From assembly GCA_014871385.1 (NCBI GenBank), contig CM026432.1, positions 6,920,970-6,984,969 of the forward strand: 64,000 nucleotides of DNA, in the 5' to 3' direction. This stretch comes from Ceratodon purpureus. Taxonomy: Eukaryota; Streptophyta; Bryopsida; Pseudoditrichales; Ditrichaceae. The first letter of the stretch is position 1. Each line of letters begins with the position of its first letter. Shown here in pieces: positions 16,564 to 55,428 of this stretch. The translations under genes and the position numbers were made by a program. The notes below the pieces were generated by a model, which ran no database searches, was not told the DNA's origin, and worked only from the letters and a program-made list of their open reading frames with translations.

Positions 16564-19500
16564 TTAAATGTCATTGTTGCAGCAGATCCCATGCTCTCCA
16601 TTCATCTCATTGTTCCAAAGGCACTGCATTTGGCTCGGATTCTGATAATGAGATATGATGAACCCGTTCTCGCAAACCCCGTGTTGATAATTTTCGTAAG
16701 TTACATAATCGACCACCTTTTTCTTTAGACTTTTGTATTTATCGACCCATATTCCCATTGCCACGTCCTCCAATTTGAAGAACTGCAAAACCATTTGTGG
16801 AACGTTAGTTCAATGGCCTAGAATACCAGTTTCAAACCACATACAGTGGAAAGACACTTCTATTTCACAGGATGAACAAGCTGAAGTACATACCTTCAGG
16901 AGGTTCTTTTGGTGGCCTTCAACTACAAAATGAGCAATATCTTGAGACATAATATAGCCAGGTCCATGAGCCCATGGTGGGTAGGTGTCATTGCTCCATT
17001 CCTACAGGCAATTGATGATCTTCAACTTTGCGAACATAATGCAATGACAGATTATATTCTTAACTTAAAGGTAATAATACGCAGAAGAACGAACAAGGCA
17101 ATCAGCAGAAGTGACCATGAAAAGTGAGTTCCCTTACCTGTGTGTTTACAAACCACTTGTTACTAGGGTCTCGTTCAGGATTGGCAGTAAATTCAAGATT
17201 GCCCAAGAAAAGACTGTGAGTAGAGTTTTGCTTCGATTCAGAAATGGTCGAAAGAACCGTATCCACACGCAGAAAAGTGTCATCGTCAGTCTTCATTACA
17301 TAATCTGCCTTCAGGTTGTATTCCTGGTAAAAACGCAAGTAAATTACCAGTGAGTAACATTGCATAGTGATTCTGCAACTTGAACACCTCCAAGTAAACG
17401 AACTAAAATCATCCAAGGCAGAAATGGTATGTGGTTAAAATACCCAACAGAAATGCCAAAGAAAGTACATACCGCATACATACAAATAGCTAGAGTTTTG
17501 TATGTAATGATGTTGTAGTAGTCCACCATTGGGAGAATCTGCATGTCCCCATAAGTAAGAGACTCGGTCCAGAGCTCCTTGTTTACTTGCGTATTCTGGT
17601 GCTGCAGAATCAACCAAGCACATTCTAAGACGTAAGTGTTCTCACCCAATACCTGTTCCTTAGAGTATGCGCATATGGGAAAAGCAAGAATCGCACCAAA
17701 TCATACATCATTGCCTTTCTCGAACAAACTCGTACAAGATCGGACAAGCTTTAATTTGATACTCTAAACTCAAAGAGTGGCAGTTTTCAGAATAAAAGCA
17801 GTGCTTGGAATTTTGTCCTCTGTACAATACAACTATTGTGACTGTCATGAAGAAAATTTGACGAACTTACCAAGCCAACAAAGAACCGCACCACTACAGT
17901 GCCATTTCGGACCTCGGGATACTGCATCCAAGTTCTCCTTACAGCCATCCTTCGAACAAAATTGCTGTTTGAGGAGAACACTCCAACGAACAGGGTAGCA
18001 CGTTTTGGCAACTTAGGAGCTCTAATGACCTTCAAATCAGGTATTAAGGATGCGTCGTCGGATATCGGGAGCCCGTTCACTATTACTGAAGAAGTTTGCA
18101 GGTCCCCTTTGATGCGCAACGAATTAACCATCCAGGGCTCCAAGCTCTGCCAAAGAAAAAGGCGGTTCCTGCTTAATACCGCAGGAACTCAAGATAACAG
18201 CGCTGAGTGTAAACTGGATAATAAGAAAGATTTCATGTGGACTATCGATCTCACTGATTTACTAAAGGGACTAAATAAAAGAAGGATATTTAGCAGCCTT
18301 GAAAGATTGTAAAAATACACCTCGACAACAAGCTAATCAAGACAAGTGAGAATTTAGATGGTACCTGGCGGTACTTGAATGATGTTACATGCTTTCCATT
18401 AACAGATACATGAAAACCATCCCACCCAGCCGATATAGTAACCACAAATGGAAATCCCTCGGAGAACGGAAACCAGGTCTTTACTGATCCTTCAAGAACA
18501 TTAATACCCTTCCATAGTCCTGGCCCAGCCTTACGTGTAATATTCTGCCCGATGTCGGAATTGCACACTTTGAGACCGTCCACTGTAAAATCATCGCACA
18601 GTAATGACATCAGCTCCTAGACGTCGCTACATTCTAAACAAAAGCATCGAAATCCTTGAAATTATCATTTAATGATCAAACAATAGCTGCATTGAGGAAT
18701 AGAGAGCAAACCTTTGCCATCAGACGAAGTCTCGCAGTTTTCACAGTCAGGTAGCACAGGGCATCGCTGTTCAAGTTGCCAATCTCCACCGACCGTCCAA
18801 GTATTCTGGACGATGCTGGGGTTTATAGTTATCTGATCACCACGTAAACGCACCGAAAAATGAAACACAACTGGCTCATCCCCTTCCTCAAACAGTTCGG
18901 ATCCTATCAGCTCAAGAGAAAAATCCCCGGTTTTGACGCCTGGTGTCCCTACTACTGTTACCGAAGAATCCAGTACCAGTCCACAGGGAATCGGCAGCAG
19001 GAAAGGCTCTGATTTCAATTCAGTAGCATTCAAAGCGCTCACAAAGAATGGACACTTGTTGTCAACCTTGTGAGCGCTACTGTTTGCTCGCTCATTGGCC
19101 TCATCAACCATAGTTTTGTTAATCTCTCTCCAAGCCCGGAGTCCTTCCCGCAGGGCCTTGGTCGCATCCTTGGGCACATTGGGTCTTCTCAAATAATTCA
19201 CAAGATACTTCCATATCGGTTGAACCCTCGGAACCTTATGGATTTCAGGAAGAAGAGTCGGGTACGCGGATATTATAGGGTCGTCATCGAGGAGTAAACT
19301 CAAATCGTCATCTTCGCCAGATGTTTTAGTGTTGTTGATCAGGGGTAAACTAGAATTGCTATCATGAAGAGATGTGATAGTTGTGTTAGCCAGGGGCAAA
19401 CTAGAATTGCTGTCATGGCGAGATGTTACAGTGGTGTTAGCGAGAGGCAAACTTGAATTGCTACCTTGACGAGATATCACAGTGTTGTTAGCTAGGGGTG

Positions 19501-19693
19501 AAGTCGAATTCCTACCACTGGGGCTGGGAGCAGGAGCCCATACGAAAGAACTATCAAAAACTATAACTGGACTTCTATAATCCGCGTAGCTCCTGCCCTG
19601 TGATTGGAAATAGCCTACGGAGAAGCTACATCGTACAGCGAAGATGGCCAAGAGTACAAGCAGCAGAAAGCTCCATTGCCGCTTCTTTGTCAT
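16564..19693 (-). CDS. Galectin-domain GT31 beta-1,3-galactosyltransferase
   Basis: This is a type II Golgi glycosyltransferase of the plant GALT class, a galectin-like domain fused to CAZy family GT31. Members add galactose to hydroxyproline of arabinogalactan proteins or to glycans; which substrate applies here is not decidable. Exons, 5' to 3' on the minus strand, are 19693-18712, 18582-18365, 18146-17871, 17601-17473, 17323-17138, 17001-16894 and 16782-16564. They total 2118 nt (705 residues). The sequence shows a short basic N terminus, a membrane anchor at residues ~9-28, and a Ser/Asn-rich stem. A galectin-like region at ~240-400 contains the motif [20 protein letters not shown]. The catalytic domain carries RRTWMQYP and the metal-binding DDD of [12 protein letters not shown]. 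The C terminus is rich in Cys (CENG, QCLW, GICC). The stem contains four 17-residue repeats with eight N-glycosylation sequons. Confidence 0.93.
19322..19510 (-). repeat. In-frame 51-bp repeats in the galactosyltransferase stem
   Basis: Residues 62-124 are built from a 17-residue period, with Asn at positions 62, 79, 96 and 113. Each unit has an NSS or NST sequon and an NTT or NNT sequon around the core SLPLANTT. It is an expressed minisatellite in the luminal stem, where copy number could vary between alleles. Confidence 0.85.
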
Positions 19694-21599
19694 GGCTTAC
19701 TAGACTAAGATTGCTTGTGAGAGTCGTCACTCGGTCCTGTTCTCTCGCCTCCTTCCGCTATGCAAGTTAATTGCAGATGCACCGAGACAGTCACCAAACT
19801 CAGCTGTCCTAGGTATCAATTCGGCCATTTCCAGGTCGTTCTTGTGCTATCGTCCGTGCCAACAATCTTCGGTCAATTCACCCAACCCCACTGCCATATT
19901 GATAATCCTTCGGTAAAAATTCTAACTAAACCCTCGAGTCCTGAACAAACACAAGAATTTCTTCTCCCACCCAGCTGTATTTGCACTGAAGTCAGATAAT
20001 CATATCAGAAAAACCATCCATTCAGCCGCACCGCAAATGCAGCCACGTTCTATAGTCATATCGATCGAAACCAGAATTCCACTCGACGTCATCACGTCAT
20101 GATAACCAATTGCTCTCGCAGAATCACCACCTGCAATCACTGCACCCTTCACACCATCGGACACCAATAAGATGCTGCTCAGATACACATACAAATTATT
20201 GACATGTCTTATACCTTTCAAACCACTTTCTCCAACATGTCGTTATACCCACTATTTCAGTCAATGCCACTATTCCTCCTGTGCAACAATATCCATTGCG
20301 AGGGCGTATGATTATTTCTAACCCACTCCAGCAGTAATAAAGGCCTTGCAACCGGGCCTGGAAAACCTAACAATACAATTACATACAATTCTCTTCCCAC
20401 TCAGAACCTCTGCGTCGTGAAGACATTCTAATCAATCCTTCATCAAGTAATGCATCACTATCAAAATTCAAAAGAATCATTCCCAATACACTGCAACTAC
20501 GTGATTGCCCAGAGATTCAAACAAATGCAATACCTCCGAATCGTTGAAAAACGCAAAAAAGGTACTGATTCACCGAAGCGGGTTACAAATTCGCGAACAT
20601 AGAACCAACTCTTACAACCGCGGCCTAACAAGAGAAAGATACTTGGTTCCGCAAAATAGCAGAACCATGCATCCTCAAATTATCCCAAAAAAACCATCCC
20701 ACAAACACACTGGATCTGAAAGAGATAAACCCCTTTGATCTAACCGACAGTTAAACTCAGAGGCATTAAAAGAAAGACGAGCTATTCCTCGTCGCCGGAG
20801 AAGAACTGTAGCGAGATGGAGCGGGTCGTAACACTGCTGATTGACTAATAATTCCACTGCCAATTGACTGACAGTTTCAATGCTGATTCCCACCACTAAT
20901 ACCCCCACGATAACTCCGAGAAACGTCATATCCTCCGAAGCAGAAAAAAACCACCAGAGCTACCCACTCATTGAATTCACCAATCCTCTCGCCCTCCATA
21001 CAACAATCCCAACTCAAAAAACGAAACACTCAATCCAAAGGAACGAAACTCAACACCGAGCAACAAACCCAACAGAAACTAAGATCGTGCCTGTGGAAGC
21101 GACCACACACACCTGCACGAAATGGAAGCGGTCAAATGCATGCGCTCAGAAGCCGCTCCAAAGCTCAGGCCAATGATCTCGCCCACCTCACAGCTGCTCG
21201 AGATTCAGCTCCCAATCTCGAAAACCCAAACGAAAATCCCAAATCCGAGCGGGAACTCTAGCATTGCTGATCCTTTTGGGGCTCGGGGACGCACAGAAAC
21301 GCCCTGTAATGGCCGCTCCGGGATTGCCCTGCACCGAAAGAAGGCCTCCCAGGAAGAATGCCGGGCACTACAGTACCCATCAAAGCACGGCCCCTTTTTC
21401 AAACCCGGGCGAAAGTGGACCTCGGTCCACACACGCGCACGAAAGGCGAGTAGCCAGTCCTGTCGCGAGGCTCTTTCACGGCGTCAAAGTCGCGGAGGCC
21501 GCGGAATAGAATAATTGCGCAAAATCCAGAAACCACGGACGACTGCTGAAGCGCTGCGCCTCTGCGCTTCTTCTTTCCGAGGGTTCTTCTGTAGCTCAC
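19694..21599 (-). promoter_or_regulatory. Upstream region of the galactosyltransferase gene
   Basis: No protein-coding gene is supported here. The sequence becomes richer in GC toward 21500 and probably contains the promoter and 5' UTR of the minus-strand gene, possibly with a 5' UTR intron. The open frames seen on both strands lack domains and conflict with each other. Confidence 0.35.
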
Positions 21600-24387: not shown

Positions 24388-24916
24388 TGTACAGTCGCCT
24401 ACAACAAAAGATATGTGATGCCTTTTTGAGGCATTCAAATATCTGTAAATAACATACAATAAAACTGGTCCATGTTATCTTGCAAAATTATAATCGCTCA
24501 ATTCTTAGCCAATCCCACTCAAGCAAACCAAGTTTCAATTTCAAAAAAGTAAATTCTAGTTTTTGGTGGATTTTTAAAGCCAATTTTTATGAATTTACAA
24601 TATATTTTATTGAAAATAATTGATGATGACTTTTTAAAATTTGATTGCAAAGATATGTAAGGAACATACATACACACATCTTTTGCATTGAAAATCACTC
24701 CTTTGAGTAACAAAGTTTTTCTTTATGAAGAATTCAATGAAAAGTTATTATGCAAATAATTTTGTAAAATAGATATTTCTTATTGTAATAGATTTTGGCA
24801 AAAGAATTGTACCATCATGTTTAAATGTATAATGTTAATTCCCATGTCAACTAATCAGCTAAGAATTTCTTACTGGCTATTTTGATGTCAATCTCTCGTT
24901 GACAGAACCAGACCTC

Positions 24917-25547
24917 CATTAACCGAGCATGATGGCACTCATTGCTTAGTGGCTATTTTGATGTCCATTAACTGAGCATGATGGCACTCATTTCTTACTG
25001 GCTATTTTGATTTCAATCTCTCGTTGACAGAATCAGACCCCCATTAACCGAGCATGATGGCACTCATTGCTTAGTGGCTATTTTGATGTCCATTAACCGA
25101 GCATGATGGCACTCATTTCTTACTGGCTATTTTGATTTCAATCTCTCCTTGACAAAATCAGACCGCCATTAACTGAGCATGATGGCACTCATTGCTTAGT
25201 GGCTATTTTGATGTCCATTAACCGAGCATGATGGCACTCATTTCTTACTGGCTATTTTGATTTCAATCTCTCCTTGACAAAATCAGACCGCCATTAACTG
25301 AGCATGATGGCACTCATTTCTTACTGGCTATTTTGATTTCAATCTCTCCTTGACAAAATCAGACCGCCATTAACCGAGCATGATGGCACTCATTTCTTAC
25401 TGGCTATTTTGATGTCCATTAACTGAGCATGATGGCACTCATTACTTACTGGCTATTTTGATGTCCATTAAGTGAGCATGATGGCACTCATTTCTTACTG
25501 GCTATTTTGATTTCAATCTCTAGTTGACAGAACCAAACCTCCATTAA
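24917..25547 (+). repeat. 49/76-bp higher-order tandem array
   Basis: CATTAACCGAGCATGATGGC-like starts occur at 24917, 24966, 25042, 25091, 25167, 25216, 25292, 25368, 25417, 25466 and 25542. The steps between starts are 49, 76, 49, 76, 49, 76, 76, 49, 49 and 76 bp. The short unit lacks the CAATCTCTCCTTGACA segment of the long one, giving a ~125-bp composite period for much of the array. The units here are nearly identical, which implies recent amplification. Confidence 0.9.
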
Positions 25548-26369
25548 TCCCTAAAATTCTGAATGACCATATTCTGGTCGTTTCATTTTTTGGGCAGCCT
25601 CCAGAGACCTCATACATTTAAAACTTTCAATGAAAAAAACTTTTAATGAAAATTTTAGTGTACTGTCCAAAAACTACACTCTACATGTATCACTTTGTTT
25701 CACATCATTCTCATAAGTATTGCAAAAGTTATAAGCATTTGAAGTTTTTGAAGCAAGATCGGGCAACAAGGTTTTTATTCTTTTTTACTTTTTTCGGATT
25801 TTTTTTTTATTCATGATTGGTTGATCTTTATCTACAATTGAAGCTTTAAATCTATCCATTTTGAGCAATGGGATAAAAGTTACGAGGAGATATGTTTCTT
25901 AAGCAGTTTGGACAAAAAAACTTTGAAGCTCATTCCTAAACTCGATTTTCAATATTTTTTAATGAAATAAAAAGCACAATTGAAGACTTCTAAATACAAC
26001 ATTCTCACCGTTAATATTGACATCCTACAATTCCATGTCAAACTTATAAATGATTTTCTATTTCCTTCCATTTTGTACCTACTTCTACTAATTGTTTTAT
26101 GAAAAAAAAAAAATATCAATTTCTAAAGTTCAAATTTGTAACCAGATTGAACCCCAAAAAATCTTCTTTTGCAACTTTGATCCTTATAATCTAAGAATTT
26201 AATGGTCATATTGCTCTCAAAATTTCTGCTCACATGAAAAACCAAATTGGGTGTTAGATCTTACGGATAAATGATGAAAATACTAGAAAAACATATTATT
26301 TCTTCCCCAACTTCCAAATGTTGCGTTTTCATGGTTTTTTGTGAAATTACAGTTAAGGAATTTTAGGGG
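25548..26369. mobile_element. piggyBac-like non-autonomous element, copy 1
   Basis: The element is flanked on both sides by TTAA (25544-25547 and 26370-26373). It has 12-bp inverted ends, TCCCTAAAATTC on the left and GAATTTTAGGGG on the right, with one mismatch. A short hairpin, GACCA-N5-TGGTC, sits at 25565-25579. It interrupts the tandem array exactly at the TTAA present in each array unit. Removing it and one TTAA restores a unit of normal length. It is 822 bp, AT-rich and non-coding. A second diverged copy lies at 54504-55424. TTAA target duplication plus CCC/GGG ends is the piggyBac hallmark; a different superfamily with TTAA preference is possible. Confidence 0.8.
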
Positions 26370-26373
26370 TTAA

Positions 26374-27117
26374 TTAAGCATGATTGTACTAATTTCTTAC
26401 TAGTTGTTTTAGATGTCAGTCTCTCCTTGACAGAACTAGACCTCTACTGATCATGATGATATTAGTCTCTCATTAACTAAGCATGATTGTACTTATAATT
26501 TTTCACTAGTTGTTTTAGACGGTAATACCTGGAAAGAAGTAGACTTCCATTAGTTGATCATGATTGTAATAATTTCTCACTGGCTGTTTTAGATGTCAAT
26601 CTCTCCTTGACAGAATTAGACCTCCATTACTAAATATTTTGATGTCAATTTCTCCTTGACAAAACTAGACCTCCTTTACCTAAACACAATTGTGCTAATT
26701 TCTCAGTGGTTGTTTTAGATATCAATCTCTCCTTAATAGAATTAGACCTCTATTGACTGAGCATGACTATACTAATATCTCACTGGCTGTAGTAATATCT
26801 CAATGGCTGTTTTAGATGTCAATCCCTCCTTCACAGATTTAGACTTCCACTAGACCTCCATTAATTGAGCAAGATGGCACTAATTTCTTACTAGGTTTTT
26901 GATGTCAATCTCCTAGACAGAACTAGACCTCCACTAATTGATCATGATTGAACTAATTTTTTACTCCCTATTTTTGGTGTAAATTCCTTTTTACCATAAT
27001 CGAACCTCCTTGAATTGATCATGATAATATTAGACCTCTATTAACTAATCAAGATTACATTAGATCTCCATTAACTTATCATTATGATTATATTAAACCT
27101 TCATTAGCTGATCAAGT
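26374..27117 (+). repeat. Diverged continuation of the tandem array
   Basis: Degenerate units related to the array on the left continue after the inserted element in the same orientation. They contain GCATGATTGTACTAATTTCT, TGTTTTAGATGTCAATCTCT and TTGACAGAATTAGACCTCCA motifs. Decay increases toward the right inverted arm, so the spacing becomes irregular. Confidence 0.75.
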
Positions 27118-27599
27118 TGACACTAAAAGATGTGTGTATGTATGGTCCTTACATATATTTGCAATCAAATTTCAAAAAGTCATCACCAATTATTTTCAAT
27201 AAAATATATTGTAAATTCATAAAAATTGGCTTAAAAATCCACCAAAAATTAGAATTTTACTTTTTTGAAATTGAAATTTGGTATGCTTTAGTGGAATTGG
27301 CTAAGAATTGAGTGATAATTTTGCAAGATGACATAAACTAATTTTATTGTATGTTATTTACAGATATTTGAATGCCTCAAAAAGGCATCAAGTATCTTTG
27401 TTGTAGGCGACTATACAATTGGGTCCAAGATGTGTACAAACTGCCTATTTGAGAACTCAAATTTTTGTTTACAATGTGTTGTATATCTGGTATATTTTGA
27501 TAAATGTAATTATCAAACCTATCAAATTCAAGTGTGAAGAAGATAAAACTCCATTTTCACTGAAATCTTTAAGCTAATTTCAATGGTTTTTCTTACATG

Positions 27600-27665: not shown

Positions 27666-27671
27666 ATCGTT

Positions 27672-28103
27672 AAGGGAAGTTTGGGGTCTCCTAAGGGCCT
27701 TTTCCATGAAATCTGTGCTTGAATTTTTGCCATGCCCGTGCACTTTACGTACTGGCACCAATGGTGCCAGCAGGTCGCCAAATGCTGCCAGCAGTGCCTG
27801 CAGTTGGCATTTGGGGGGTCCAGCCAATCGCTTCCCTTCCCCACCCCACACCACCCCATCCCCCCATTGGACAATACAAGCAGTAATGACACTGTCACCG
27901 AGCGTGTGCCCACTGCTGTCACCCCATTGGACAGTACCGGATCTTGTTGTCAGCGGGGCGAATTCTGTTGTCAGCGGGGCGAATTTTGTCGTCAGCATGC
28001 AGGATATCCACCAATGAGATTTCGCACAGAAGTGTCAGCGGGCAGGAAGCTCACCTAATCCGAGTTGTCTTACAAAGCCCTTAGGAGACCCCATTTTTCC
28101 CCT
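27672..28103. mobile_element. GC-rich element with own terminal inverted repeats
   Basis: GGGGTCTCCTAAGGGC at 27683-27698 has a perfect reverse complement at 28077-28092, and weaker pairing extends ~11 bp outward. The interior is strikingly GC-rich for this interval. It contains a perfect 9-1-9 palindrome at 27752-27770 (CTGGCACCA, A, TGGTGCCAG), a second hairpin pairing CCAAATGC with GCATTTGG, and two 21-bp direct repeats with TGTTGTCAGCGGGGCGAATT at 27945-27986. No protein is recognised. It inserted next to or into a fragment of the foldback arm. It looks like a non-autonomous transposon carrying foreign sequence. Confidence 0.6.
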
Positions 28104-31100
28104 AATGACTTACATCCTTCCTTTCGCAAGTGTCTTCACAAAAGTTTTACAATTTTTTCTACAAAGAATCTAATATATACTGGACAAATCCCATTTGTTG
28201 TAACAATAGATATATCTCTATTGTCATTAGATTTGTCCGTTTTTTCCTTCATGTGGTATCTAAATTCAAATTTTTTAGTATGATGGTTCAATTACTTTGC
28301 CAAAATCTCATTGAAATATGAAGATATATGTTTCACAAATTTTGGTCATATAAAACCTTATATTGAGCTCTTACTAGAAGAAAACATTATGAAAAACCAT
28401 GAAAATTACCTGAAAATGTTTCACCAAAAATGGAAATTTGGTCTTTTAGAATTGAGATATGAAATGTTTGATTAAAAGCGTTAAAAGATGCAATGATAAT
28501 CATCCAAGGCAAAAAACTCAAACAATTTTCTACACAATGCAATAAAAATTGGAATGGCTTAAATATGCAATTTGTATTCATCTAGGACATGACTATACAT
28601 GAAACTTGTTAATGCCACAACAATGAATGCCAAATTGATAATAACCAGCTTCTAACTGGTGAAGCATTTGACTCTTCCTTAAACTGGTAGTTTATAAGAC
28701 CATTTCCGCTCAACGCCGAGGCTACCTCAGTGTTTCTATCTTCTGAGGTCAAACAAAATTGACTACCCTGTAATTCCCAAAGAGCTCCGAGAGAAGTAGA
28801 GTGCTCTCACAGATTAGGGTTAGAAATGGTGTAGAGTGTGTTTCTACTTTATATACTCGGACTCTCGATTTAACCCTTTGTAGCAAGAGTAACCATTGCA
28901 AAAGTTCAAAATGCAAATATCAAAGTACGCGTAGAGAATTGGAACTTTATTCATGATGTTTACATTTGCGGACTTACATTACATACCTTCTATAAAATAA
29001 ATCAATTTGAGGTGGTGCAACTATCAAAATATCTCTAGACAAAACTCAAAATACTCCATGTCTTTGAAAATACAACAAATACTTATAAATACGACACTGA
29101 TTTTATGTAGTATTTATTGTCTTCATCAATTTGTTATTTGTTTTGATTTTTTTTGGATCAAAAGTTCTTATTCGCCTTTCATTAGAATTTATAATTTGAT
29201 CTTGACTAATATACTCATTCCGTTTAATTTTTAATGTATAAAAGTTTGTTCCAAACTGTATATGGATAAGTCACATTTACTTATAAAATTTATAGTAATT
29301 ATACTCGAGTCTATTCTTGATGTGAAAAGTTGTAACAAAGAAGTGTTGACATAGGGCATTGATAAACTTCTTTACTTTTAATATTGAAAATTTAATCCAA
29401 AGTTTATTTAACTTTGAAGTCATATAGCCCTTAAACTATCATTTTTGAGTGTGTATTATACATTGCAACATATACCATAATCTTCGAGTTGCACCATTGG
29501 ATGGATATGTGATTTTAACATTCTTTTTAAAATTTGAAAACAAAATTATACAACTACTTTCTTATATAATATACTCTATTTTTTGTAGTTTCTACCATGT
29601 GGAAAAATATCCTAAAGGCATTTTTACTTAGAACAATATACTAAACCTTTAGTATTTTTTAGATGTCTCTTTAATGATATATATCTTTGAGTAAATTGTT
29701 CAATCAATAATGAAAATGTATCCACTAGGGGATTTTTGAGGCAAAGCATCAACACACTACTCTAATGAGAATCAAATTGGATCATCCATTATGTCCAATG
29801 ACTTAAACTTGGAGCTCCAACCATCAACCTACTTTCCAAATAGAAGTAAATCTTATTGTTAAGGGCTTGTTCGGCTTAAAGGAAAATCAATGAAACAACG
29901 AGGCAATGTCCTCGCGACACCCCAAAGGGGACCACACCAGCCACCTACCGGCCAGTAACGGACCATCGAAGGTCCAAACCTCACTATGTACAGTAAGGAA
30001 AACAGACAGGGAAACGCCTATCATCTGATCGAAGAATATGCCAACCAGAGATTTAACAGAAAATCCTATCAACTTATGAGAATGCACACTAACTATACCA
30101 TCTAACCAAACGGATTAACCAGGAGGTCAATCATCCTTCCCTGCGATACCCAGGAAGGTGGATCATCAAGATCCAAATCATCAACCATCTGTACCACAAT
30201 TGCTTGAGCTAATTGATTAGCTAATAAAAGTAAATCTTATTAGGTTAGCCGGAAAGGCATTTCTGAATAAATCTTATGAGGTCATGGCACACCATGGTGC
30301 CTACTACCATAGTCCACCCAACTATGGTGGGGGGTCTTGAGACCTCGTTGTATGGGTATCCAAAAAGACCTTGGGGGGGATGACATGTCGGTTGTCTTCA
30401 AGGCATTTAGTGTAAAGGCACTTAGTGTAGAAAAAAGTGTCTACCTTCGAAAGGGGGAAATAGCTCTAGATTCATTATCCTTTGTCCAGCCGCCATCGGA
30501 TTAGTGAGTAGAATGAACAAACACTATATTCACGTCGGAATCTTTTTGCAAGAAAACAAAAATTCTAATACACTTTGAAGCATGTTTTGATCTAAACACC
30601 ATATAAAAAAATAATAAAATTTTAAGATATTTTTTAAAAGATTTTCCTAATTCCAACCATAGACTTTCATATCTAGTTGTTGTTCATTCTTGATGGCTCT
30701 ATACATTAGTTTCACAAGATTTTTTTAACTTTGAAGGGGCCGGAAACAGGCATGGGCCCAGAATTAGGCTGGTTTCCAATAACCGGTTCAATTCCAAAAA
30801 CATGACCGGTAAACTCCGGTAACGCACCGTGCACACACCGGGCAGCCAAACCGAACCTCCAGGAGTCGTTCGGTGCAAAACCCTAAGCCATATACACCCA
30901 ACCCCACCACGTAACCCAAAACCACCACAATCCACCCCAAATTCAAGTTCCTCAAACGCCACCTCTACACATGGCTTACATAACCGCGCATTTAGAACCC
31001 ATAACATATTTCCACACTCATCTCAAACACGAGCTCCGTCTTCGGCTTTCCGAAACCAGACCAGAATTCCATCGTCTTCACAAACTAGACAAGATCGCAG

Positions 31101-36919: not shown

Positions 36920-39900
36920 TCAAGTATCTCCGTGCCGGCCAACTTTCACAGCACTTGGCCAGGAATCTATTGCTTCCTGAAATGGGAAGTTTTCAAGCGT
37001 GAAGTACTTCTGGCCAAACATCCGAACAACTAGAGGAAGATGCTTCCCCAACCTATTCCTCTGGCACGATTTCAAGAACTTTAAGGTGGAGAAACACCTC
37101 TCGTCCTCAGTGGAGCCTAATACGAGCACACTTCCCATCTCTGCAAGTTTCAAATATTCAGGAATGAGCTTGCACAGGGGCCTTGACGCCGAGAGGGTCC
37201 TCCACAGCTTCACAACTGGATTGACATTAAACGGAGGGGCACATGCGGCTTCAGCATTCGCCTTCATGGTGAGTTTGAACAGAGACTGCTCAACTTCTAG
37301 CTTCGACGCCGAAAGCATCTCAGGAACAGCTAGAGCCACACCATCAAGCGTGACTGTTTTCGACTTGCAATAGAAGTTTTTCAGCACTGACAAATGCTGG
37401 ACAAAACTTTCATCGGCCCCATCTTGCATCCAGTATTGAGGGTAAATGATCCCGAAGGCATCAAGTACCTCAACGTGAGGAAAACGGCGATCCAATTCAT
37501 CTGATAAGGCTTGAGCCGCCTCTGCACAGGACCAGAAAACCACAGTCAGAAGCAACGAACCGCAAAGGAACCACTGAGTCTACAAAGACACCAACGACAC
37601 ACCCTGACTAGCAACAATCCTGCAAAGACACCAGCGAGCCAGCAAAAGCACACACACATCCAGCGAGCACGACCTCAAAAACAGAGAAGCAGAATTGAAA
37701 GGAAAAAAAAATGATTGAAAAAAACAAAAATAAAAAAGAATGGAACGACGTCGACGATCAGGGGGAAGCAGGAACCAGATACCTGCAAGCAGCAAACCAC
37801 ATCATCAATCAAACATCACGAACCCCAAAGCAGCGAAGAAAAAAATAAAATACCAACGATCCATGGAGCCTAGCAACAATACAGCAACTGGAGTCGTGGA
37901 CACAACGCTCAGTGGCTTACAAAGCAAAAACCCGTACAATCCAGCAAGCCTAAGCTGCGAAAGAAGCAGAATATAAAGAATATAAAGAATTAAAAAAAAT
38001 TAAAAAAATTAAAAAAGAAAAGAATAAAAAAGAATGCAAGAACCTGTTACCTGCAAATTGACGCTGAACGTTGTCAATGCAACGATTGAATTCTTTGTGG
38101 GTTACAAAGAGGCATTGGCCGCTGGATTTATCATGGCAGCGAAGGTAGATGTATCTACTTTTGAAATCGAAGTAAAGATATTGAACGCCACTGCCGCCAT
38201 CAGACTCCTTCCATTTCATACACAGAGAAGGATGCCGAAGTTCCAGCAAATCGTGGTACTCCTTGAAGTCCTCTTCGCCAAAGGCAGTTTGGGGGTCAAT
38301 ATACTTGCGGGCCAGCTCATCCTGAACACATTTCACGGATTGTAAAAAATCGCATATGAAAACATCTCGAGCCTGGGCGAATTTGATGAGGCAGTGGACA
38401 GTGGTCAGCAAGGGCTGAAAGCATGCTAGGGACAGCAACAACTCAATGTCTACAAGGTAATCAAAGTTGTCAAAGGCCGCACCAACATCCTTACTTTTCT
38501 CACAAGGAACATGAGTCATATCCGTGCCCATCTTAACGATAAGAGTCTTGTATTCTTCAAGTACCCTTCTTGCTGGACTCCTCATGGATATCCAGCGAGT
38601 AGTGTTATTTCGGAGAATCTTGTTCCCCTTAGTTTCCATGAGGCTAGCTAACTTCTGAAGCTCAACAATTTTTTTGTTGCTTCTGCAGAAGTATGCGTAC
38701 AAGGACTGCAGGAAAGCTTCAAGCCGAGACACCATAGGAAAGTTAGACAAAGTCTGAACGTACAAATTGACCCTATGTCCACAGCACTTCATTCCCAAAG
38801 AAAAAGGCGCCCACTTCTCCCGAATCTGGGAGGCTACCCCAGTTTTCGATCCCTGAAGGGCCGCAACACTATCTGAACCGAAAGCTAGAAGCTTTCCTGC
38901 AAGCTCTACCTGAGACAGGCCGCCTTCACACATCAACGAGTGCATTATTACATTCGTTAAGTGATCAGCTTTGCCTGGCTCGGTGACATGCGACATGTGC
39001 AGCAAGTGGGGTATTCTGTCCCAATTGTCCATCGTGTAGACATGAACCCCAATCCACGACGTGTGATCAATCGCTGTAACCTCATCTGCACTAATCGAAA
39101 TGACTCGAGCAGACTTAACAATCGACTTGAGAGACTTCATAACTGACAAATGCAAGTGCTCGCTCATCTCCCAGCCAGTACTCTCAGACCAATGTTTTCG
39201 AGGCAAATTCTTAACCTTAAGGTATTTGAACAAATTCTCAGATCTTTCATAATCAATCATCGGACGACCATGACTAAGGATTTCATACAAGGTTGAGAAT
39301 TGAACTCCCTTTCTCTTCAGGTCCGGCTCCAAACCCGCCAGCACTTGATCTGCAACAGTCCCAGGCTTTCGGCTGGCCCAAGTCTTACAATGCTGTAAGT
39401 GGTGGCACTTGTGGGCAATGTAGGTGTCGCCGGCCTTGAGATGAGCCTCGGGGTGGCCATCGGCAATGCAAGTCCGCTTGCCCTGGTGCTTGGCCAGGTT
39501 ATCATTCTTCGGCACAATTGATTTCTTGCGGCCCTCCACACCAGTGCAGATCTTACAGATCACAGCCACCAAGACGCCATCCACGAACTCGCCGTCACCC
39601 CAAGTGTACTTGCAGGACCATGATTCTTGCCACATTCTCGTAACATCAGGGGTCTTCCTCTTCTTCGGCGATCCCCCTCCCTTCACCGAGCCCCTCCTCT
39701 TCCTCTTCTTCCCTCCAACCTCAGGGACGACTTGATCCTCCCCATAATCGGTGCCTTCGCCAACCTCTCCATCGGATCTCTCCTCGCTGGCCACAGAAAC
39801 TTCAGAACGACTGCACTCCAGAGGCCGAATCGCAGGGTACACGGAGTCGGAAGCTTGAGTCTCCGAGACATGCGTGAGGGACTTCTCGTTGCCAGGAACA

Positions 39901-40025
39901 ATCGCAGCAGTTGGAGCGCCGAACTTTGGAGCACGGGGCAAGTATTTGCCAAGACCATTCACATTTCGGCTTGAACCGAAGTATCGCACTCGAAAGTTCT
40001 CCGGCAGCTTCAACCGCGGAGCCAT
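36920..40025 (-). CDS. hAT-type transposase-like protein with zinc finger
   Basis: Two exons, 40025-38051 and 37521-36920, join in frame to give 858 residues. The family moves hAT DNA transposons or, when domesticated, binds DNA as a regulator. An acidic/basic disordered start contains a likely nuclear signal, KKRKRR...KKRK, at residues ~106-124. A BED/TTF-like zinc finger follows, with CKIC at 157-160 and H180/C186. Then comes the RNase-H-like core, with first catalytic-type Asp in VISISADEVTAIDHTSW and second in LLAFGSDSVAALQGSKTGVA. Next is the CCGHRVNLYVQ motif. A C-terminal hAT dimerisation region contains LWRTLSASRPL and GSTEDERCFSTLKFLK. No stops interrupt the frame. The start ATG at 40025 was chosen at MAPRLKLPENF; an in-frame ATG at 40100 is possible. 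I did not find terminal inverted repeats, so a domesticated gene cannot be told from an old or active element. Confidence 0.85.
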
Positions 40026-40130
40026 TCCCGAATCCAAATAAACCTGCGCCCCTTCAAGACAGACACAAAGCCCCCTCAATGCGCACAAAGCACTCGGCAA
40101 ATCGTGACACCGAAATCAGATCAAAGACAG

Positions 40131-43429: not shown

Positions 43430-43451
43430 TCACTAAACCCTAAACCCTAAT
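43430..43451 (+). promoter_or_regulatory. Telo-box upstream of CBF5
   Basis: CTAAACCCTAAACCCTAATT contains overlapping telo-boxes about 190 bp before the CBF5 start codon. Telo-boxes in plants are linked with coordinated expression of ribosome-biogenesis and translation genes, which fits CBF5. Confidence 0.65.
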
Positions 43452-43637
43452 TCTGTGCTTTGCAGAGCATGGCTACCGTCTTACAACACTGAAGCTCGCG
43501 ACAGAATTTCTCTTTTCGGCAGCGGAGGTCGTCTGCACCCTCCCGCATGCTCCGCACGGCGACTTAGGAGCTTCAGGCGGTTTTGGTTTGTAGTTTGGTT
43601 GTCTTTTCAGGGTTTTGAGGTCAGGGGTTTGGGTGAC

Positions 43638-45317
43638 ATGGCTGGGTCGGAGAGTAAGAAGAAGCGGAAAGAGAAGGATGAGGGGAAGGAGATGGTGGCG
43701 GTGAACGAGCAGGCGGAGACGGATTACCTGATCAAGCCGCAGGCGACGACGCCGCCGCTCGATACTTCCAAGTGGCCAATTCTGCTCAAGAATTACGACA
43801 AGCTCAACGTGAGGACGGGGCATTACACTCCGCTCCCGACGGGGCACACGCCGTTGAAGAGGCCGCTTCATGACTACGTGCGATATGGTGTGATCAACCT
43901 AGACAAGCCGGCGAATCCTTCGTCGCATGAGGTTGTGGCATGGATTCGGCGTATGTTGAGGGTGGACAAGACGGGGCACAGCGGGACTTTGGATCCGAAG
44001 GTGACGGGCAGCTTGATCGTGTGTGTGGACAGGGCGACGCGGCTCGTGAAGGCGCAGCAGGGCGCCGGAAAGGAGTATGTGTGTGTTGCTAGGCTGCATT
44101 CCGCGGTGGAGTCGGTTGCGAAGGTGGCGCAGGCAATTGAGACTCTGACTGGTGCTTTGTTTCAGAGGCCGCCTTTGATCTCGGCTGTCAAGAGGCAGCT
44201 GCGTATTCGAACCATTTATGAGAGTAAGTTGCTGGAGTATGACGCTGAGCGGCACTTGGTGGTGTTCTGGGTGTCGTGCGAGGCGGGGACGTATATTCGA
44301 ACTTTGTGTGTGCATTTGGGTCTGTTGTTGGGCGTGGGAGGTCACATGCAGGAGTTGCGTAGGGTTAGGTCAGGTATTTTGGGTGAGAAGGATAACCTAG
44401 TGACAATGCACGATGTGCTGGATGCGCAATGGGTGTATGATAATCACAAAGACGAGAGCTACTTGAGGCGCGTGATTATGCCTCTAGAGGTTCTCCTCAC
44501 CAGCTACAAGAGGTGTGTTGTGAAGGACAGCGCTGTGAATGCCATCTGCTACGGTGCGAAGCTCATGATCCCCGGGTTGCTGAGGTACGAGCAAGGGATT
44601 GAGGTTGGCGAGGAGGTTGTTTTGATGACCACTAAGGGAGAGGCCATAGCGTTGGGCATTGCCCAGATGACCACCTCGGTCATGGCCACATGCGACCATG
44701 GTGTTGTGGCCAAGGTGAAGAGGGTGGTGATGGAGAGGGATACATACCCGAGGAAGTGGGGATTAGGTCCTCGCGCCACCACGAAGAAAAAGATGATCAA
44801 TGACGGTCTCCTCGACAAGCACGGCAAGCCCAATGAGAAGACCCCTGCAGAGTGGCTGAGAGTGCCGGTGTTTGATTCTGCGCCCAAGAAGCCGGTTCAG
44901 GAAGAGGAGCCCAAGGCGATCACTGATGGAGCTGCAGCAGTTGAAGCCGAGCCAGTCACTCCTGCGAAGGAGAAGAAGGAAAAGAAGGAGAAGAAGAACA
45001 AGGCGGAGCCAGTCACTCCTGGTCCGGACGATGGTGAGAATGGTTCCAAGAGTGAGAAGAAGCGGTCGAAGGAAGCTGCATCGAGCCCAGTTGAGCAAAC
45101 ACCCGACACTGCCCACAAGAAGAAGAAGTCTAAGAAGGCGGATTCTGAAGCAGAGGAAGCCACGAATGGAGAAGCGACTACAGAGAAGAAGAAGAAAAAG
45201 AAGAAGAAATCCGAAGACGTCGAGATGGAGGAAGCAGTGGAGGTAACACCTAGTGTAGAAAAAAGTGTAGAGAAGAGTGAGAAGAAGAAAAAGAAGAAAT
45301 CTGAAGCTGTGCAATAG
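43638..45317 (+). CDS. CBF5: CBF5/dyskerin H/ACA RNP pseudouridine synthase
   Basis: This is the catalytic subunit of nucleolar H/ACA ribonucleoproteins, which convert uridine to pseudouridine in rRNA and snRNA with NHP2, NOP10 and GAR1. It is one uninterrupted reading frame of 559 residues; the Arabidopsis homologue is also intronless. Visible parts are a Lys-rich start, the dyskerin-like region ([20 protein letters not shown]), and the TruB domain with [20 protein letters not shown]. The catalytic Asp119 lies in [11 protein letters not shown]. The TruB core continues with [16 protein letters not shown] and [14 protein letters not shown]. The PUA domain spans about residues 295-370 ([20 protein letters not shown] onwards). 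The C-terminal ~110 residues are K/E-rich repeats typical of nucleolar localisation. The frame stays open 61 codons upstream, but similarity begins at the ATG at 43638 ([13 protein letters not shown]), which I chose. Confidence 0.97.
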
Positions 45318-53635: not shown

Positions 53636-54503
53636 TCTGAATTTGGTCGCAGAGAACATTGCTTATGATTGAGCAAATCATTTGGTGAATGCCTCGATCA
53701 TGGTTTGGATCATGCGGAATCTTAAACCAGGAGTATTGGAGCTCATCCCATCCTCATAGGAAAATTAGTTAGCAAAAGCTGCTTGACCTCCTCTCATGAC
53801 TTCTTATTGCGGAGAAAGGCGGAGAGGGGTTCGAAAGGGCTCACATAATTAGGGTTTCAAATGAAAATGGGGTATTTCCCCTTTATATATTTCTACTCTC
53901 GGTTTAAAACTCTGTTGATAAGTCTAAAAATTCATGCAACTATTATGTTGCAAAGCAAACCAATGAGCATCTTCCTTTCTCTCCATTCCAGAATTCATTG
54001 TAACTCTGAAAACTCTATTTTATTAGGAAATGTAAAAAATTTCCAAAGATATTCATTACCTGTTGCTGCCTCGGGTAAAAATATAGCTTTCTTTGAATAC
54101 TGTACCATTCCGAAACAACCTGTGTACATGTCACACTGATGTTTTGCATTTCTGATGCCATTTCAGGAGCATTCACAGAATTCATAATTCTTCTCAGATA
54201 ATGGCACTTAACTCCTAGAAGTAGTGAACTAAATGATTTTATCAAGATATCATCAACAGTTCTTGAAAAGTAAAATTCTTGATTTGTTAAGACAAATATC
54301 CTTAGGAATGGCTAAAACTACAAAACCTACTACCCAAGTTTGTGATAATTTTGAGCTCTGTAGTAACTCCATCTGCGAGGAGTCTGCAGTGTAATTTTTC
54401 CGAAAAATTCAACAAAATTCATGTCAGGATCCATCAAGTGCCTGCAACTATGGCAATCAACATCCACATGTGAACATGATTACCTACATCATACACTACT
54501 TAA
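53636..54503. other. UFSP2 3' side and spacer
   Basis: No gene is seen. The stretch 53828-53915 shows a TTAGGGTTTCAAATG motif followed by TTTATATATTTCTACTCTCG. It is related to 28790-28890 and may be part of an old LTR. Confidence 0.4.
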
Positions 54504-55424
54504 CCCCTAAATGCACTGGCGACCAAAATGTGGTCGCAGCCTATTTTGGGCAGGCTGCTACGGCGTCAAAAATAATTATTAAGTTTTGAAATTTTGTATG
54601 TAGATTCTTTCAGTCATTACGTACATGTCAAGCTTTGTTTCATATGATTCTGATATGTAATGCAAAAGTTATGAAGGATTAAAGGTTCAAAATCTCAACG
54701 CGGGCAGCATAAAAAAAACTCAAATCTTTTTTTTTTTAATAAATTAAAATATCATCATTTTCTACTGATTTGTATGCACATAGGAAGCTTTGAGCCATGC
54801 CAATCCAATAAGTGAGGTAAGAGATATGAGAAGTCATATTATGCGGGCAGTTCGGTCAACTCTTCATCAAAAATAACTTCAACTATTGATTTTGAACTCG
54901 ATTTTAGCAATTTTTCAAAATTAAAAATTGGAAAAGTTTTTGGTTACTTGTTACATCATTTTCACCGTTGGAATTGACAATATCTACTTTTATGTGGACA
55001 AAATTAGTAGTTTAGTTTTTCCCTCTATTCTACATCTTATTCTAATTATTTATGGTTTGAAGATGAAAATTAAGGTTTAATGTTTTGAAATTTTTTGTGA
55101 AGAATCTCAAGTCATTCTTTAAATAGAATATGCAATTGCCCATTCTAAAACTTCAAAGCATATTTTCTGAAAATTTGTGGAAGCCAAGATTTTAGTTTTT
55201 TGAAGGATTGGAAATAACTTGTCTTGGAAGTTTAAACATCATGATCTTGTGATTGGTTTGGTTTCTGACTCTAAGAATTTGAGAAATAGTTTTTTGATGA
55301 GTTATTTATAAGATCCTACGGTTGAAATTGCAAAAGAATGTTATGAAATTAAAAAAATCAGCTTGCTTTACAAAGAGGTATCAAAAGACAGTTTGAGCCT
55401 GAAATTTTCAAGAGCATTTAGGGG
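54504..55424. mobile_element. piggyBac-like non-autonomous element, copy 2
   Basis: TTAA occurs immediately outside both ends (54500-54503 and 55425-55428). The ends are an 11-bp perfect inverted repeat, CCCCTAAATGC on the left and GCATTTAGGGG on the right. A hairpin, GACCA-N5-TGGTC, lies at 54521-54535, the same distance from the end as in copy 1. Interior blocks shared with copy 1 include TTTTGGGCAG, ATGCAAAAGTTAT, AACTCGATTTT and TCACCGTT. It is 921 bp and non-coding, so movement would depend on a transposase elsewhere. Confidence 0.8.
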
Positions 55425-55428
55425 TTAA

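Follow-up and report, generated by a model that had tools for sequence, protein, structure and literature searches.

What is the 822-bp segment that sits between two copies of TTAA in the middle of a tandem-repeat array of the moss Ceratodon purpureus, and how did it come to be there? The window, by which we mean the whole stretch of 64,000 nucleotides that was analysed, corresponds to positions 6920970-6984969 of contig C12, and a preliminary description of it had proposed a TTAA-target transposon of the piggyBac superfamily. Coordinates and ends are as that description gave them. The left TTAA occupies 25544..25547, the element 25548..26369 on the plus strand and the right TTAA 26370..26373; the limits of the element were read from the sequence and from the alignment of its family. 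The two terminal inverted repeats are TCCCTAAAATTC on the left (25548..25559, plus strand) and GAATTTTAGGGG on the right (26358..26369, plus strand). A Pfam search with the 822-bp element, read in one frame with the stops as X, gave no match. In our view the segment very probably belongs to the piggyBac superfamily of DNA transposons, as a non-autonomous (MITE-like) element that is presumably moved in trans by transposases of its host.

The state of the site before the insertion can be read in the array, through paralogous units only. The element splits an array unit at its TTAA, and when the element and one TTAA are taken out, the joined flanks form CCATTAATTAAGCATGATTG, which aligns without a gap to array units, as had been claimed; the identity is 47 of 56 columns with a left unit and 43 of 50 with a right unit. 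The left block of the array (24865..25547) consists of ten 49-bp cores that are on average 95% identical. The right block (26374..27116) is degenerate, with a mean of 72% over four compared units of the 11 that were recognised. The preliminary description went too far in stating that CATTAAC is uninterrupted in all the other units. This is nearly so in the left block, where CCATTAA is present in all ten units (followed by C in nine of them and by G in one), and it is not so in the right block, where ATTAA is kept in four of the 11 recognised units. The 49/76-bp rows reported by the tandem repeat finder also lie to the left of the insertion, except for one diverged 49-bp pair at 26588-26684.

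The insertion lies on the border between the homogenised left half and the degenerate right half of the array, and the part of the split unit to its right is 80% identical to the right units versus 73% to the left units. One reading is that the insertion acted as a barrier past which homogenisation could no longer spread; on another, the array border already existed and the element inserted there. The whole array is enclosed by an inverted repeat of about 300 bp, with its left arm at 24388..24684 (plus strand) and its right arm at 27125..27417 (minus strand). The arms are 89-95% complementary in pieces, and they may be the long inverted ends of a larger mobile element that has the array as its interior. 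Checked by eye, the 300-bp inverted repeat has no clear target duplication. An imperfect inverted repeat of 35 bp (83%), with arms 372 bases apart, is present at 27667-28108 of the window and is possibly another short element.

The array alone prefers a target-site duplication of 4 bp without fixing that length: the score is 67 when four bases are removed, 66 when seven, 65 when six and 64 when five are removed. The genome in which other copies were sought comprises 362.5 Mb in 151 contigs, one of them 110.5 Mb long. When the element was used as a DNA query, 78 pieces matched; of the 86 candidates 40 received a score, and the window itself is among these. In the other 39 copies the 12-base repeat alone served to locate the ends, with TTAA not required, and the expectation of the preliminary description that genome copies would be flanked by TTAA was borne out, as 32 of the 39 have it on both sides. 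In the remaining seven, TTAA is missing from one side or from both; in three of these an end was unrecognised, and in four a side is changed or truncated. The flanks of the 32 copies are unrelated (no more than 48% ungapped identity over 60 bp), and a direct repeat one base longer than TTAA occurs in four of the 32 on the left and in six on the right, which is the chance level. The duplication length is therefore fixed at 4 bp by the family, because so many copies have TTAA on both sides and further extension is at chance.

The exact 16-mer TTAACCCCTAAAATTC from the element ends occurs 436 times in the genome (216 forward and 220 reverse), and the reversed control occurs once. TTAA is frequent, with 302 occurrences in the window, and the terminal repeat measures only 12 bp, but the idea that a chance inverted repeat lies between two TTAAs, or that an array unit diverged in place, hardly deserves consideration given a dispersed TTAA-flanked family with unrelated flanks, these two pattern counts and the readable empty site. 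Slightly better, and still highly improbable, is a PIF/Harbinger or other element with a duplication of three bases (TTA or TAA) or of five (TTAAT). Taken by itself, the window copy, which has T at position 1 of its left end, unlike the C of the consensus, would permit TTAAT on both sides; however, each end starts with C in 31 of the 32 copies, the consensus is CC...GG, and nothing extends past TTAA beyond chance. The family alignment rules out both a five-base TTAAT duplication and the absence of any duplication.

The consensus of the family, made from a 33-row alignment of the 32 copies and the window copy, is 911 bp long, non-coding and has CCCCTAAAATTC as its terminal repeat. Divergence from it ranges from 2.7 to 7.2%, the window copy being the most diverged at 7.2%. 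The window copy is also without 98 bp of the consensus, in a single internal deletion between two A-runs, and an A-run at 26102..26113 (plus strand) marks the junction. Among the matches listed for TTAACCCCTAAAATTC, which run from C1 to part of C3, the places form pairs about 0.9 kb and about 0.23 kb apart. A short type of 231-241 bp, with CCCCTAAAATTC ends and TTAA flanks, was found at five loci on C1 and C2 (L073-L077), which were picked for both ends matching, and so the TTAA flanks there are present by selection.

The window contains a second element, a diverged relative of 921 bp, which we call element 2. It lies at 54504-55424 on the plus strand (54500..55428 including its TTAAs), with ends CCCCTAAATG and CATTTAGGGG and TTAA on both sides. 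Both ends of the 911-bp consensus align to it above all 200 shuffles; the 5' end has a score of 142 against a shuffle maximum of 50 (z 15.4) and the 3' end a score of 151 against 107 (z 7.4). An early control for element 2, with 100 random window segments (best 431.5 versus 440), was set aside since the segments could overlap elements, and shuffles were used instead.

Other parts of the window also have features that can be named. Two long open frames of 219 and 721 amino acids (36920-40115, minus strand) had no Pfam match at E 0.001; by eye they have the look of a hAT-type transposase, which we offer as our assumption. An uninterrupted frame with dyskerin/CBF5-type domains at 43437-45317 and a frame for a galectin-domain protein at 18665-19696 both look like ordinary plant genes.

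A non-coding element would depend on a transposase made elsewhere, and piggyBac transposase genes are abundant in this genome. A profile search with PF13843 (DDE_Tnp_1_7) yielded 998 candidates and at least 116 matches, all of those listed being over the cut-off. The matches are distributed over all thirteen large contigs (C1-C13) and the small contig C53, and none of the 14 control genomes matched. Fifteen transposase loci (L058-L072) were searched for their ends, and at least six of them, namely L058, L059, L067, L068, L070 and L071, have both TTAA ends, a number that is a lower bound as it comes from C-rich end patterns only and from limited flanks. Judged by their ends, L058 belongs to the L059 lineage, and L067 (5114 bp, CCCCTCAACGCCCA) and L068 (3894 bp, CCCTTAAACGTCA) belong to other lineages.

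The locus L059 serves as an example. It spans 5863 bp between its TTAAs, has the ends CCCCTAAACGGC and GCCGTTTAGGGG, and carries one stop-to-stop frame of 1050 amino acids that matches PF13843 with an E value of 1.4e-80. The same frame matches PDB 6x67, which we take to be the Trichoplusia ni piggyBac, at E 7e-28 and piggyBat (9c0f) at E 2.7e-27. Its TIDE, MDNFFTS and GVDVADQ align with the corresponding stretches of 6x67, and presumably these are the stretches that hold the three catalytic aspartates; if so, this distant relative would have all three. The C-terminal cysteine-rich zinc-binding domain (PF13842) scored E 0.0055 and 17.7 bits in L059, with the cut-off at 24. A regular-expression scan for the catalytic motifs over 22 loci gave a mixed picture, with some frames broken or missed, and L061 and L062 have GVDGQDH at the place of the third motif. 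As for viral relatives of the L059 transposase domain, none of six peptide patterns matched in viral contigs.

Two of the transposase loci connect these genes to the short family. At L070, two copies of TTAACCCCTAAAATTC face each other from the ends of a 6.5-kb stretch; the transposase frame between them is broken and, when read with X at the stops, matches PF13843 at E 2.6e-56. L071 is 5395 bp long, with TTAA on both sides and a PF13843 match inside (E 4.8e-75), and its 3' end is the family 3' end for 18 nucleotides, CCCCTAAAATTCCTTGAC. The other end of L071 has only CCCCTAAA, eight bases, in common with the family, and the ends of L070, past the first dozen bases, resemble the 231-241-bp type and not the 911-bp family. 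The long copies with a DDE_Tnp_1_7 domain that the preliminary description had foreseen thus exist and share the first 16-22 bases, and what they share is the ends and not the interior. The locus L072 (an 822-aa frame with TTAACCCCTAAAATTC on one side) was considered as a complete element and rejected, as no second end was recognised in the fetched stretch.

Several features expected of a piggyBac element are present in the family: a TTAA target-site duplication, short terminal inverted repeats of the CCY/CCC kind (CCCCTAAAATTC) with CC...GG termini, and related full-length copies coding for DDE_Tnp_1_7, namely L071 and, with its broken frame, L070. The superfamily reading of the preliminary description stands, and a common superfamily for the short family and the transposase-bearing elements is well supported because the latter have the same ends. 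Other superfamilies also leave a TTAA duplication, Sola3 among them. According to a passage of PMC9587614, Kolobok likewise duplicates TTAA, but its ends are 5'-RR...YY-3', and so it shares the target site with our family and does not fit termini of the form CC...GG with C first in 31 of 32 copies. An origin as Kolobok or Sola3, already very unlikely, would also have to be reconciled with the PF13843 domain inside a long copy that has the same 16 bp at both ends (L070), and after L070 and L071 we regard this explanation as largely refuted.

Beyond the terminal repeats, some of the piggyBac elements have internal signposts in common. The window element has the motif TTTGGGCAG at 25589..25597 (plus strand), the first base being element base 42, and the same motif occurs 41-42 from the 5' end in the family consensus, element 2, L058 and L059. 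The motif GATC[CT]TACGGTT, one mismatch allowed, is found at -113/-114 in the consensus, element 2 and L059; it also occurs with one mismatch at -113 in L071 and, with one mismatch, at 26257..26268 (plus strand) of the window, 113 bases from the 3' end of the element. Within the 64-kb window, exact TTTGGGCAG and GATC[CT]TACGGTT are present in the two elements only, with one TTTGGGCAG per element. A subterminal imperfect palindrome, TGACCATATTCTGGTCG, at 25564..25580 (plus strand) has the counterpart CGACCA...TGGTCG in element 2. On their transposase strand, the seven loci L063-L069 have neither of the two motifs; L070 and L072 are without both at the expected places, and L071 is without an exact TTTGGGCAG.

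Alignments of the interior gave a less consistent result. In end-free alignment the consensus 5' end reached z 1.6 against L059 and z 2.3 against L058, both under the best shuffle, and the 3' end reached z 3.5 against L059, just above the best shuffle. In local alignment, two of five tests for the 911-bp consensus exceeded the best of 200 shuffles, these being the 3' end with L071 (38 versus 30) and the 5' end with L059 (33 versus 29); the 5' end with L071 and the 3' end with L072 and with L059 did not. For element 2 the count was four of five. Outside the terminal repeat and the motifs, then, the homology of the consensus to the fetched transposase-bearing elements is weak. The notion that the 911-bp family is a simple deletion derivative of the L059 lineage was rejected, since it has no support beyond the end and the motifs, and the exact autonomous parent of the family was not found among the fetched transposase-bearing elements.

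These results bear on the one alternative that keeps some weight, namely that the element is a fossil, a piggyBac MITE that has outlived its own transposase lineage, the present transposases belonging to other lineages and no longer moving it. We regard this as possible, if doubtful. The copies have drifted 2.7-7.2% from their consensus, the interior homology is weak as described above, L070 is broken, and the matches listed include no intact autonomous element that carries CCCCTAAAATTC at both of its ends. However, of the 436 ends those listed run from C1 to part of C3, and so intact partners may lie elsewhere. In addition, the piggyBac element at L058 (C2:17856966-17864605) contains a nested copy of element 2, inserted in a TTAA and 99.0% identical across all 921 bp, which suggests that the sister family has moved recently.

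Taking the segment as a non-autonomous piggyBac element, the likely course of events would be as follows. A piggyBac transposase produced from another locus of the genome would recognise the CCCCTAAAATTC ends and the subterminal motifs and cut the element out of its donor site; the element would then be joined to the TTAA of an array unit, leaving TTAA on both sides. The 98 bp may have been lost after the insertion or may already have been missing from the source copy. Mobilisation in trans by these transposases is what we infer from the ends, the motifs and the transposase genes.

The element family is new and its superfamily is known; what would surprise a specialist is the number and the diversity of the transposases. 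We think it reasonably likely that the native piggyBac elements of this moss genome form a large population of many lineages that has moved recently and may still move. A superfamily regarded mainly as one of animals, fungi and protists would then have radiated in a land plant, including on a contig of sex-chromosome size. This interpretation is based on more than 100 scored transposase matches among the 998 candidates, on several types of terminal repeat and on the presence of three or more sorts of dependent short element. For comparison, a passage of PMC8000587 puts the C. purpureus U and V chromosomes at more than 100 Mb each. The transposase genes, the dependent short elements and the readable empty site together are evidence from the sequence that a moss has an abundant piggyBac system of its own, and they open questions about the origin of plant piggyBacs (vertical or horizontal), about their activity and about the effects of insertions on tandem arrays.

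The preliminary description had added that piggyBac was rare or unreported in land plants, and "unreported" has to be withdrawn. A passage of a 2015 survey (PMC4438587) counts PiggyBac among the superfamilies present in every taxonomic group that the survey covers, and land plants are one of these. The repeat table of a fern (PMC6890710) contains a row for PiggyBac whose first column reads 1230, and the abstract of PMC10813416 names plants among its sources. A passage of PMC12732532 describes piggyBac as occasional in plant genomes, e.g., red algae. None of the open-literature matches listed is a description of a moss piggyBac family, and the one joint match for "piggyBac" and "Ceratodon" in the open literature uses "piggybacking" in another sense.

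How, then, do these elements compare with the systems already known? As in the piggyBac superfamily represented by 6x67 and piggyBat 9c0f, they have TTAA as target and duplication, ends that start with CCC and DDE_Tnp_1_7 in their relatives; they differ in that the host is a moss and that the window copy is non-coding. Beetle piggyBac elements have CCCT as the commonest start of their ends, and their transposases measure 500-725 amino acids, according to passages of PMC12732532, as opposed to the stop-to-stop frames of 1010-1050 amino acids in L058 and L059. The piggyBac MITEs of animals, for example of coral (PMC2872659), are by description like the window element in being short, non-coding and associated with piggyBac and TTAA. 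Unlike these, the moss elements form a 911-bp and a 231-241-bp type that have one 12-bp terminal repeat in common, and they reside in the genome of a plant.
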